58,862 bases of DNA. It comes from an uncultured Bacteroidales bacterium (GTDB lineage Bacteria > Bacteroidota > Bacteroidia > Bacteroidales > JAUNSR01). The stretch covers positions 1-58,862 of the forward strand of contig CAMTON010000011.1 in NCBI GenBank assembly GCA_947074105.1. The letters are read 5' to 3'. The translations under genes were made by a program, and so were the position numbers. This document shows positions 14,691-45,248 of this stretch, in pieces. The notes beneath the pieces are model-generated. The model did not search any database. It worked only from the letters and a program-made list of their open reading frames with translations, and was not told where the DNA came from. Position 1 is the stretch's first letter. Every line of letters starts with the position of its first letter.

Positions 14691-14876
14691 ACTGTTTTTA
14701 TATTATAAATTATTGAAAAAATATCTCGATATCATTAACCTTATGGTCATTCATACCAATTAGTAAAATTATAAATAAATATACATAACGGTTTTCTATT
14801 ATTACTTTATTAATATCATTTCGGTTTATTTATAAATAGATTATTTATTCTATTTAACCCTACAGCCTGATATTTT

Positions 14877-14993
14877 TTGTGACCCGCGTCCCGTGTCCAT
14901 TAAGTCTCCGGGCGGAACACTTTCTGAAGCCGGAAGGGACTCATAAGAGATTCTTCCGTGATACTGACGTCACCTTGCCGGGAGCCGTCACAA
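14877..14993. ncRNA. GC-rich segment with nested complementarity, possible structured RNA
   Basis: This is an island of high GC in the AT-rich gap between divergent deoC and ybeY. TTGTGAC (14877-14883) pairs with GTCACAA (14987-14993). Inside that, TCCCG (14889-14893) pairs with CGGGA (14979-14983), and CGGAAG (14931-14936) pairs with CTTCCG (14953-14958). The layout is a long rod with internal loops. It does not contain the SRP RNA loop sequence, and I cannot match it to tmRNA, RNase P RNA or a riboswitch. The strand is undecided. Confidence 0.35.
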
Positions 14994-15086
14994 TATGACG
15001 GGAAAATAAAAAAAGCTGTGCATACGTAGTCTTTCATAAACCGAAAAAGCTAATATATCGTTATTCATTAATATGTTAAGAATCAA

Positions 15087-15121
15087 TTTTGCAGAGCGAG
15101 CGATTAAAAACATTATTTTTG
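15087..15121 (+). promoter_or_regulatory. ybeY-mnmG promoter
   Basis: TTTTG (15087-15091) and TATTTTTG (15114-15121) lie 22 nt apart, close to the 19-21 nt spacing of Bacteroidota promoters. They lie 57 bases before the ybeY start codon. Confidence 0.55.
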
Positions 15122-15178
15122 TATTATAGAAGCTGACAAGAAATTTATCAGCAATACAAACTATTAAACAATAAAGCT

Positions 15179-17746: not shown

Positions 17747-17762
17747 TGTTTCACGTGAAACA
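17747..17762. promoter_or_regulatory. parS centromere site for ParB
   Basis: TGTTTCACGTGAAACA is a perfect 16-bp palindrome and matches the near-universal bacterial parS consensus TGTTNCACGTGAAACA. It is placed in the mnmG-apt gap. ParB would load here and spread, forming the partition complex; such sites cluster near replication origins. parA and parB are not in this window. Confidence 0.93.
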
Positions 17763-40044: not shown

Positions 40045-42144
40045 TCAAAACTTATATCTTATCATAGCAGAAACATCTGTTCTGTCACTTCCGTAAATAG
40101 TCTCAAAACCCGTTCCTATAGTATCGGTATCAAAATAGTGAGTATTTGAAAATTTTATCCACACTGTAAGTCGTTTGATTATATCATATTTTATATTGAC
40201 AGCTATTCTCATCCCTTCGCCATAAAGAGAATTAAAACCGAAACTATATGGCATTCCTCTTTCCGTAATATAAACACGTGATGAATAATCATCTGTTGAA
40301 AAAGCAGTAAAAGATATATTTCCCGATAAAGGAAAATTCTTTTTCTGATAACCTACCATGGAAGTAAGGTAAACACCTGATTTTTTTCCGCTTTCGGTAC
40401 CCTTTACCAAAATGTTTCCGCCAACCATACAATTGTAAACTATATTTCCTGCATTTGAGCTCAATGCAATATATCCCTGATGTTTATCAACAGGTGAAAC
40501 ATCATGCGGAGTAAAAAGCAAGGAATCAATAAAAGGCAGAACATAAAATAATGTATCGCCGGAATATGATTTTTCATTACCATATTTTCTCTTAAAACGA
40601 TATGAAAGATTTATCTTCATTTTATTAACAGGCGCACTTTCAAGTTTAAAGAAAAGATCATATCCTTTAGAAGCAGAATCTATACCGTATTTAATAAAAG
40701 GAAAAGAAAAAACATCTATTCCGGTCTTAATCACAGCATCTTTAAAAACCGGAAAATAACAGAACACAGAATATCCCTGCTCATTCTGAAGCGATGAAGA
40801 TTCTGAATATGAACGTCCCCAGAAACTATTGAAATCACGTTGATAATATCTCTGAATAAATGAAAGCCCCGATTTACCGGTAAAGTAAAAAGAAAGCGAA
40901 TTTATTGTTGAAAATGAATATCTGTTTTTAAAATATTCCCGGTCATTCACACATCCCGCAACTTCGGAAGAGAAATCAAAACCTGAAAACTTCACCTTGT
41001 TATAAAGTGAAAAAAGAAGCTGACGGTCGCCACGGAAATAATAAACATTATAAGGTCTTAAAGCAGGTAAAAAATCATTGTTGAAAACATTGGAAACCAT
41101 ATTCAATCCGCACTTATAAACATTGCCGTCATAAATAAGTGATACTCCCGAAGTAAGAAGCGACACTTTATCAATCTTTTCAAGATCAGATACTTTCGAG
41201 TGAAGTCCGTCCTTTTTTATCGATGTAATTGAGTTATCATCACTGATTCCGTCAAATCGTCTGTAAGATATCAACAATGTTAATAACAATCGTGAATAAC
41301 CTGCTTCAACAATTGCACCCTGCAAATAAGAATATTCATCTGTTGAATTATGTCCCGAAAAAGAAGGCATTCGTGAAAGAGAACCGGAAGTATAAAATCC
41401 CTTTCCCATACTGAAACCGTTGTTCATAATAAGTCCCATTCCAAGCCTTGATTTATAATTACCTATTATCACATTCCTTACAATGCCGCGCGGCATAAAC
41501 TGCAGATAACCTGAAAAGAAATCCCCCCATTTTTCCCCCGCATCTTTTTCCACAGTCAACCCTAAACGGAAACGGTTTTTCTGCTCTATATTGATCCTCA
41601 CGTTATTATAAAGCCTGTTGAAAACATAGCTTTTATCCCTGTTGATAACACCTGATGTATCACGTTTTTCAACATAACCTTCTTTACGGTTAATATTTGA
41701 TTTAAAGGTAGTTAATACTGCAGTATTTACCTTTTTAAACCTATTGTTAACAAATTGTTTGTTTACCTGTTTATAATCTCCCGCATAAACGAAAGGAATT
41801 ATCATATTAAAAAGATTTCTGTCTATGCCGTCGATATAAAGAAGTTCATATACACTTTTTACCGGTGCATACAGATACAGATAATACATTATAGATTCAA
41901 TCTGCCGGTCATTAAGAAAAGGTATCCTTTCAAAATCCTTTTTTGTTGCCGAATTAATGTCAATCGGAGAGTCTTTAAGCTCCTGAATATTGTTTTCAAG
42001 ATTGTTGATATCCTGTTCACTAAGTTCATCTTCCGAAATTTCATTTATAATATCATAAACATTATAATCCTGATAATCAATATCCTGAGCATGAATATTA
42101 ATTATAAACATATATGTTGATAATATTATTAACAACCTGTTCAT
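40045..42144 (-). CDS. Outer-membrane beta-barrel protein with N-terminal helix-hairpin-helix motifs
   Basis: A 699-residue protein. A signal peptide (to about residue 19, ending HAQ) is followed by an acidic linker. A tandem helix-hairpin-helix region (about residues 58-116) reads SPIDINSATKKDFERIPFLN and then SVYELLYIDGIDRNLFNMI, like ComEA-type DNA-binding modules. The remaining 550 residues alternate aromatic and polar residues as in outer-membrane strands and end in an aromatic-basic terminus (SAMIRYKF), as expected for an integral barrel. The helix-hairpin-helix part would face the periplasm. The gene overlaps the upstream barrel gene by 4 bases, so the two are translationally coupled. 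DNA handling or uptake is a possibility, not a demonstrated function. It carries a perfect DnaA-box 9-mer at 40155-40163. Confidence 0.82.
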   Translation of the reverse strand: MNRLLIILSTYMFIINIHAQDIDYQDYNVYDIINEISEDELSEQDINNLENNIQELKDSPIDINSATKKDFERIPFLNDRQIESIMYYLYLYAPVKSVYELLYIDGIDRNLFNMIIPFVYAGDYKQVNKQFVNNRFKKVNTAVLTTFKSNINRKEGYVEKRDTSGVINRDKSYVFNRLYNNVRINIEQKNRFRLGLTVEKDAGEKWGDFFSGYLQFMPRGIVRNVIIGNYKSRLGMGLIMNNGFSMGKGFYTSGSLSRMPSFSGHNSTDEYSYLQGAIVEAGYSRLLLTLLISYRRFDGISDDNSITSIKKDGLHSKVSDLEKIDKVSLLTSGVSLIYDGNVYKCGLNMVSNVFNNDFLPALRPYNVYYFRGDRQLLFSLYNKVKFSGFDFSSEVAGCVNDREYFKNRYSFSTINSLSFYFTGKSGLSFIQRYYQRDFNSFWGRSYSESSSLQNEQGYSVFCYFPVFKDAVIKTGIDVFSFPFIKYGIDSASKGYDLFFKLESAPVNKMKINLSYRFKRKYGNEKSYSGDTLFYVLPFIDSLLFTPHDVSPVDKHQGYIALSSNAGNIVYNCMVGGNILVKGTESGKKSGVYLTSMVGYQKKNFPLSGNISFTAFSTDDYSSRVYITERGMPYSFGFNSLYGEGMRIAVNIKYDIIKRLTVWIKFSNTHYFDTDTIGTGFETIYGSDRTDVSAMIRYKF

Positions 42145-43004
42145 CTGTTGATAATATAAGATAGTGAAACAGAAGGAGAGAATCCGAGAACCGTATGATA
42201 CTGACAGGAAAAGTCAGCACGCATATGTCTTATCTTAATTCCTATTCCGGCAGTAGGCATGCGCGGTTCAGTCAGATATCCGATATTGAAATTTAAGCGC
42301 TTAAAAGGTTTCCAGGAAAATGCGCTTTTAAAACAAAACGGTATGTTATAACTTTTTTCAACTTCAAAAAAGAAATCAAGAGTCCGGCTTACTCCATAAG
42401 CGAATCCAAGTGAATAAGAAAACGGCAGATAATAATTATTGTCGGAAGCATGATAGGTTATTGTAAACGGATTAGTTATCAACAATGATAATATAATGTT
42501 TTCAACAGGTTGATAGGTAAGGCCAATATCAGGATATAGGGCAAATATATTTTCTTCATTATCAATATGATCCATACGATAATAATTAAGTCTGACGCCA
42601 AGCGACAGACCTTTACCCAAAACTCTTCCAACAGATAATCCACAGACAGTTTCATTAAAATGTTGATAACCGTAGCGTGTTATCAACACCGAAAAATCGT
42701 TGTTTCCGTTAGTCATTCTGAAACCGGCAAGCATTGTCGATATTTCACTGATCATAAAATTATTGTTTACACCCAACGTCATTATCCGGCGTTTGTAATC
42801 AGGCTTGTCAGAATCGAAATCTATTATTATTGAAGGGTTGATATAGTCGTCGGTGATAGTGAGGATATTTGCAAGAGAGTGGGTCCTTGCACCTGTCATG
42901 TCAGTGATGTCTATACTGTATGCTTTATTAATAATAAGACAGGATAATGATATATAAACAATAAAGGATAATAGAATATGTCGGCTGCATTTCATGATAT
43001 CCAT
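42141..43004 (-). CDS. PorV/FadL-like outer-membrane protein
   Basis: A 287-residue protein (or 284 from the ATG at 42995) with a signal peptide ending at about KAYS. The mature part starts ITDMTGARTHSLANILTI, resembling PorV/PorQ-type T9SS accessory barrels. Beta strands alternate through to the end (FSPSVSLSYIINR). Its stop overlaps the start of the helix-hairpin-helix barrel gene, so they likely form a functional pair. Exact family assignment is uncertain. The gene carries four exact TTATCAACA-type sites, including an inverted pair at 42661-42688, besides those at its boundary. Confidence 0.75.
   Translation of the reverse strand: MDIMKCSRHILLSFIVYISLSCLIINKAYSIDITDMTGARTHSLANILTITDDYINPSIIIDFDSDKPDYKRRIMTLGVNNNFMISEISTMLAGFRMTNGNNDFSVLITRYGYQHFNETVCGLSVGRVLGKGLSLGVRLNYYRMDHIDNEENIFALYPDIGLTYQPVENIILSLLITNPFTITYHASDNNYYLPFSYSLGFAYGVSRTLDFFFEVEKSYNIPFCFKSAFSWKPFKRLNFNIGYLTEPRMPTAGIGIKIRHMRADFSCQYHTVLGFSPSVSLSYIINR
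42661..42688. repeat. Inverted pair of TTATCAACA motifs
   Basis: TGTTGATAA (42661-42669) and TTATCAACA (42680-42688) face each other across 10 bases. It lies inside the PorV-like gene and is part of the regional motif cluster. Confidence 0.8.
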
Positions 43005-43126: not shown

Positions 43127-43198
43127 GTACAGTTGCGATATTGTCACCGTACGATGGCAATATCGCAACTGTACTGTTGTAATATTACAACAGTACAG
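43127..43198. repeat. Two overlapping perfect palindromes
   Basis: The first is a 17-bp inverted repeat (43127-43143 with 43158-43174, 14-nt loop). The second is a 30-bp perfect palindrome at 43169-43198 with no loop. They share 43169-43174, so the two hairpins are mutually exclusive. They lie in the gap between divergent outer-membrane and DUF4294 genes. There is no good T-tract, so this is not an ordinary terminator. Confidence 0.85.
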
Positions 43199-44050: not shown

Positions 44051-44080
44051 AAAAGGCCGGTCTTTTAAGATCGGCCTTTT
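44051..44080 (+). terminator. DUF4294 gene terminator
   Basis: AAAAGGCCGGTCTT pairs with AAGATCGGCCTTTT (one wobble), followed by TTG, 10 bases after the stop codon. Confidence 0.9.
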
Positions 44081-44095
44081 TTGTGTCAAATATAG

Positions 44096-44179
44096 TTATC
44101 AACTTATCAACAATCACACAACCCACTGATTATCAATAGCGATATATGGTTATCAACAATAGTTATCAATATATCAACC
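44096..44179 (+). repeat. Iteron-like array of TTATCAAC motifs
   Basis: In 84 bases, six copies face the same way: TTATCAAC at 44096 and 44104 (back to back, period 8), TTATCAATA at 44130, TTATCAACA at 44150, TTATCAATA at 44163 and TATCAAC at 44172. The spacers are AT-rich. It lies in the gap between two genes that end towards each other, so promoter function is unlikely. Such direct arrays are typical of initiator-binding regions. Confidence 0.75.
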
Positions 44180-44193
44180 TATATATAAACAAG

Positions 44194-44225
44194 CCGGAGC
44201 ATGGTAATCGAATACCATACTCCGG
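44194..44225 (-). terminator. Terminator of the TrmH-family gene
   Basis: CCGGAGCATGGTA pairs with TACCATACTCCGG (one wobble) around a 6-nt loop. It lies 25 bases past the minus-strand stop codon. Confidence 0.8.
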
Positions 44226-44250
44226 CCTGTAGTATCTTTTTAAATTTAGC

Positions 44251-44778: not shown

Positions 44779-45248
44779 TATCTTGAATTTTATGATACAA
44801 AGATATGTAATGAAAAGGTGTTTAAAAACTCTTGATAACTTATTAATAGAATTGTTGATATATATTTATAACTAATGAAAACTTTAGAGGTCATTTATTT
44901 GCAAAATCCGTTATTCCGCATAGAAAACGTGTTTCTTAAATCTCCAAATATTTAGTCAACAACTTATTGGATGACATTTACACGATTAATTAGTCAGTTA
45001 TCAATATAGAAAGAAGAAGAAAGTTATTAACTTTGCGGTAATCAACAAATAGAGGTGTAAAGCGGTAAAAGCCTGATTATCTGTAATAATGTATGTTGAT
45101 ACATTATTAATAACATGTGTATATTTGACTGGTTCTTCTTGATAAGTTAAAAAGCAAGACATTTAACATAATTCTTTCAACGTTATTAACACCCTATTAT
45201 CATTATAATAAATAAGTTTTAAAAAATAGATAAATAAAAAATATATAT
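44779..45248. promoter_or_regulatory. AT-rich nadA upstream region with two promoter boxes and a hairpin
   Basis: This 470-bp gap is very AT-rich. TAACTTTG (45028-45035) and TATATTTG (45120-45127) are candidate -7 boxes for nadA, giving leaders of about 205 and 115 nt. A perfect 11-bp hairpin (45084-45094 with 45099-45109) has the loop GTTG. Several near-copies of TTATCAACA occur (for example TGTTGATAT near 44853 and TGTTGATAC near 45094). No ORF. Confidence 0.5.

Follow-up and report, generated by a model that had tools for sequence, protein, structure and literature searches.

Origins of replication far from dnaA are common in the Bacteroidetes, and in chromosome 1 of Prevotella intermedia OMA14 the oriC predicted with Ori-Finder/DoriC is a cluster of DnaA boxes that lies where GC skew switches and is distant from dnaA (PMC4755523). 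Clusters of DnaA boxes near oriC are also known from B. subtilis and S. coelicolor, where they repress untimely initiation (PMC4585315). The locus described here, nadA-trmH-DUF4294, was analyzed in a contig of 58,862 nucleotides (the window, meaning the whole stretch studied) from a 205-contig draft genome of an uncultured Bacteroidales bacterium. Like the predicted oriC of P. intermedia OMA14, it has a box cluster, which in related genomes lies at a skew switch, and dnaA is on another contig; it differs from that type of predicted origin in that its boxes are mainly TTATCAACA, extend over 5-6 kb including coding sequence, and are tied in position to nadA-trmH-DUF4294.

A short array of boxes in the convergent gap between DUF4294 and trmH shares with datA/DARS of E. 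coli and with the B. subtilis and S. coelicolor clusters the character of a non-coding putative DnaA-box cluster near oriC. Unlike datA-type clusters, it lies inside the probable origin zone and is not conserved. Its short same-direction repeats recall plasmid iteron origins, which it does not resemble in its chromosomal context, in its conserved housekeeping genes, in the lack of a Rep-type gene among the neighbours tested, or in its smaller unit of 8-9 bases. The array is probably (roughly 0.7) an accessory cluster of putative DnaA boxes within a Bacteroidales replication-origin region.

The array and the box-rich zone around it

The gap between the DUF4294 protein gene (Pfam PF14127; 43433-44041, + strand), a conserved neighbour examined in 80 named loci, and the SpoU/TrmH-family RNA methyltransferase gene trmH (PF00588; 44251-44778, - strand) is 209 bases long and contains six same-direction motifs of the TTATCAAC type between 44096 and 44178, all on the + strand. 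Three are exact copies (44096, 44104, and 44150) and three have one mismatch (TTATCAAT at 44130 and 44163, ATATCAAC at 44171). Dinucleotide shuffles of the gap contained on average 0.02 exact copies and 0.29 copies with no more than one mismatch, and three exact or six near copies were reached in 0 of 2000 shuffles. The array is bounded on the left by the terminator of DUF4294 (44051-44084, + strand; an inverted repeat with its stem at 44051-44080, then T's) and on the right by that of trmH (44189-44230, - strand). The original prediction had described six near-identical motifs facing the same way, two of them back to back with period 8, in a gap between genes that end towards each other and with terminators on both sides; each of these features was borne out, and a second period-8 pair (44163/44171) was found besides the first (44096/44104). 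Each pair sits in one of two 26-nt copies that are 85% identical and 67 bases apart. With a 9-base site the members of a pair would overlap, so that both period-8 sites may not be occupied together. No match to an RNA gene was obtained in the region at the Rfam family gathering score.

The array was looked for in the genomes of close relatives and proved not to be conserved. In the congener G002 the same gap is longer and without TTATCAAC, in the congener G001 it is short and without a TTATCAAC array, and the corresponding gaps of 42 relatives with nadA and trmH contain four TTATCAAC in total. Judged by these comparisons, the small array is a species-specific extra and not a conserved core.

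The array is one component of a wider zone, which the original prediction had overlooked. Seventeen exact TTATCAAC copies are present on both strands between 40484 and 46374, from an HHH-protein gene through a gene of 287 amino acids, DUF4294, and trmH to beyond nadA (quinolinate synthase, PF02445; 45249-46235, + strand). These 17 copies compare with about 0.5 expected in the interval 40.0-46.4 kb, and the other 52 kb of the window contain 6 exact copies against 4.2 expected. Twelve of the 17 are intragenic, trmH itself containing two exact boxes (44357 and 44504). The genes at 40045-42144 and 42141-43004 have four boxes each, compared with 0.62 and 0.53 in synonymous-codon shuffles (0 of 1000 in each case), and this excess of intragenic copies suggests that the motif is maintained as DNA sequence in this zone. 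Genome-wide counts were obtained by pattern searches, in which TTATCAACA was found at 160 places in 3.86 Mb (the places listed being the first 100 of these), so that 14 TTATCAACA in 6 kb are far above background.

Upstream of DUF4294, at 43127-43198, there are two abutting palindromes, one with 24-nt arms that are 92% complementary and one a perfect palindrome of 30 bases; they were not seen in the shorter gap of G002.

The divergent gap between trmH and nadA (44779-45248) is also the nadA promoter region. Its AT content is 76%, compared with 64% for the window, and it is 83% identical to that of G002 over the full 470 bases, whereas four other gaps aligned with those of G002 about as well as shuffled sequence or slightly better. 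Across 41 trmH-nadA gaps, TATCAAC is present in 34 against 8.6 expected and the canonical TATCCAC in 14 against 2.2 expected. The gap contains a conserved promoter-like element, TAACTTTGC, and promoter function may therefore explain part of its conservation. Its identity with G002 and its enrichment in these motifs make the gap the best candidate for the origin core, and a better one than the array.

TTATCAACA is a one-base variant of TTATCCACA, the canonical E. coli-type DnaA box. An intact DnaA is encoded in this genome, on a contig other than the window, and aligns to solved DnaA proteins through the DNA-binding domain, with krdhatvlha in place of the grdhttviha of the best-matching solved DnaA (8btg). 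Literature searches on whether TTATCAACA acts as a DnaA box in Bacteroidales, and on the Parabacteroides origin, returned nothing usable.

Motif enrichment, GC skew, and parS across the Bacteroidales

The locus was compared in a sample of 80 named Bacteroidales loci around DUF4294. The two most enriched 8-mers from -1 to +2.5 kb of DUF4294 were TATCAACA (150 vs 25) and TTATCAAC (138 vs 28), and box density peaked at 8-9 per 10 kb, compared with about 1 farther away. Enrichment goes with linkage to nadA: density was 1.01 per kb at linked and 0.18 per kb at unlinked loci (p = 3e-11, a value that overstates the number of independent events because the genomes share ancestry), and three boxes per 4.5 kb were reached at 33 of 43 linked loci and at 4 of 37 unlinked ones. 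Near DUF4294, the nadA-linked loci contain 144 intragenic boxes as against 43 in synonymous shuffles, and distant genes also showed a slight excess (36 boxes vs 25). A pair search across other families led to the same nadA-trmH-DUF4294 locus. G006, in which linkage to nadA has been lost, served as a negative control and had neither boxes nor a skew switch at the locus.

Averaged over the 80 loci, GC skew changes sign at this locus, and longer stretches show the switch more clearly. In G020, G051, and G130, three genomes belonging to other families, the skew switch and the box peak coincide at nadA-trmH-DUF4294 to within about 5 kb. In G020, 50 kb of negative skew give way to 50 kb of positive skew at 90 kb, close to DUF4294 (90.7 kb). 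The skew of G051 switches at about 100 kb, and nadA-trmH-DUF4294 occupies 101.4-103.5 kb, in a 5-kb bin with seven boxes. For G130 the corresponding positions are about 20-25 kb (switch) and 26.4-28.4 kb (the three genes, with five boxes). At coarser resolution, the switch of G129 falls somewhere from 970 to 1060 kb; DUF4294 of this genome is at 1013.5 kb, where boxes are few. In Massilibacteroides vaginae the switch is displaced from the locus by roughly 100-200 kb. Over 10-kb flanks, box density was not a significant predictor of how large the skew change is (p = 0.14 and 0.25).

In the window itself, orientation-corrected fourfold-site skew flips at about 15 kb and not at 44 kb, and does so in the genes of either strand. 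The flip adjoins ybeY-mnmG-parS and coincides with the deoC/mnmG junction. deoC and mnmG have the same orientation in G129, G020, G001, and G130 and point apart in this genome and in G002. From the skew flip and the gene orders, an inversion breakpoint may be placed between deoC and ybeY-mnmG, at 14691-15178 (about 14.7-15.2 kb, with ybeY-mnmG on its right), common to G002 and not to G001; the flip would then be the place where the inversion juxtaposed two stretches of old, opposite skew. The flip was also considered as an origin, and was rejected on account of its few boxes and the gene-order breakpoint at the same place.

A perfect parS, TGTTTCACGTGAAACA, is located in the mnmG-apt gap (17747-17762, + strand), adjoining mnmG/gidA (TIGR00136; 15604-17478, + strand); no second perfect copy occurs in the genome. 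In seven of the eight genomes with both elements placed (this genome, G129, G020, G130, G001, G152, and G006), the best parS is on the DUF4294 contig, at a distance of 13-101 kb; in G002 it is on another contig than DUF4294, whose contig is 24 kb long. G153 was left out of this count since its DUF4294 is unplaced.

Because of the motif enrichment, the skew switch in other families, and the nearby parS, the locus is most likely a chromosomal origin region, with the motif as its putative DnaA box. The same three lines of evidence support, for the locus, the original prediction of initiator binding rather than gene regulation; they do not extend to the iteron-like array as the functional unit.

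Similar arrays elsewhere and the role of the array

This genome also has compact arrays of TTATCAACA in further convergent gaps, as dense as the window array or denser: one of seven same-direction boxes between nadC and asnB, downstream of nadC (C29, 9743-9959), and one between ansA (asparaginase) and an RND-pump gene (C84, 4038-4237). The xerD/sufS convergent gap (C111) contains a weaker array of the same motif, and arrays in other convergent gaps were also found in G004. Both compact arrays recur in G002, where their spacers differ (nadC/asnB, C28, 17492-17667; ansA/RND, C19, 16392-16627), and this retention of sites while spacers vary likens them to datA and to the B. subtilis and S. coelicolor clusters. 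Skew is nearly constant along the G002 contig with the nadC array, and no array after nadC was seen in other families. The C29 array was considered as an origin and rejected, its G002 ortholog lying in near-constant skew and its counterpart being absent from other families. Arrays of the C29 and C84 type could be DnaA-titrating clusters.

Other repeats were noted in the course of these comparisons. In G108, six TTATCAAC occur within 400 bases (C1, 1652490-1652890), flanked by a gene that has no Pfam match and by one for a tyrosine phosphatase; this is a one-contig genome with DUF4294 at 271 kb, and the cluster is a possible relocated origin or satellite cluster. Two Barnesiella genomes have an identical 29-base box pair, TTATCAACAAAAGGGGGCACTTATCAACA (G153, C15, 27271-27299; G154, C12, 49266-49294). 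A different repeat of about 22 bases, beginning TTATCAACTGATAACTTGCG, is found in G002 (C14, 33708-33759; C27, 23433; C37, 22663-22720).

The arrays elsewhere bear directly on the alternative that survives best, namely that the window array titrates or regulates DnaA in the manner of datA or the B. subtilis clusters, lies near the origin by chance, and has no role in initiation. It gains from the arrays in other convergent gaps (C29, C84, and C111), from the retention of two of them in G002 despite differing spacers, from the near-constant skew around the nadC array of G002, and from the known near-oriC clusters that repress untimely initiation (PMC4585315). Against it, the window array lacks the conservation seen for those of C29 and C84 and is situated inside the origin zone, not apart from it, which leaves this explanation rather improbable though worth weighing. 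A functionless local repeat expansion, in which a 26-nt unit was duplicated in an AT-rich gap, would fit the two 26-nt copies and the lack of conservation, but what was duplicated is precisely the motif for which the surrounding 6 kb and the relatives show enrichment, and arrays of this motif with different spacers are present at other places in the genome; such an origin for the array is unlikely. The original prediction had taken the array as an iteron-like core initiator-binding element of the origin, in keeping with its phased same-direction copies in an untranscribed gap and with the other evidence for an origin region, but this is very unlikely given its absence from the same gap in two congeners, the four boxes in the gaps of 42 relatives, and the lack of a Pfam match to a Rep-type gene among ten neighbouring genes. 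That the motif is a transcription-factor site for DUF4294, trmH, or nadA is scarcely credible, since only the boxes in the trmH-nadA promoter gap speak for it, while the array is downstream of both flanking genes and between terminators, and the boxes extend over 5-6 kb, including the inside of genes, and coincide with the skew switch.

The accessory-cluster reading is thus preferred, with DnaA as the presumed binder. The origin region would comprise about 5-6 kb around nadA-trmH-DUF4294, within which DnaA would bind many dispersed boxes. Duplex opening would most likely take place in the AT-rich trmH-nadA gap, and the transcription-quiet DUF4294/trmH gap may provide extra sites that load or hold DnaA beside this core. 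The array itself is perhaps dispensable. More tentatively, the origin of these Bacteroidales may be of a dispersed kind, in which DnaA boxes are selected over several kb, both within genes and in gaps, and are backed in some lineages by satellite arrays that are gained and lost between species in distant convergent gaps.

Significance for Bacteroidales origins

For gut Bacteroidales, most origins are predictions that have not been mapped, and dnaA is of little use as a landmark. It would be unusual for boxes to be maintained within genes in the face of synonymous drift. The combination of nadA-trmH-DUF4294, a nearby parS, and TTATCAACA would allow origins to be located in metagenomes and draft genomes, which is needed for estimates of growth rate from read coverage.
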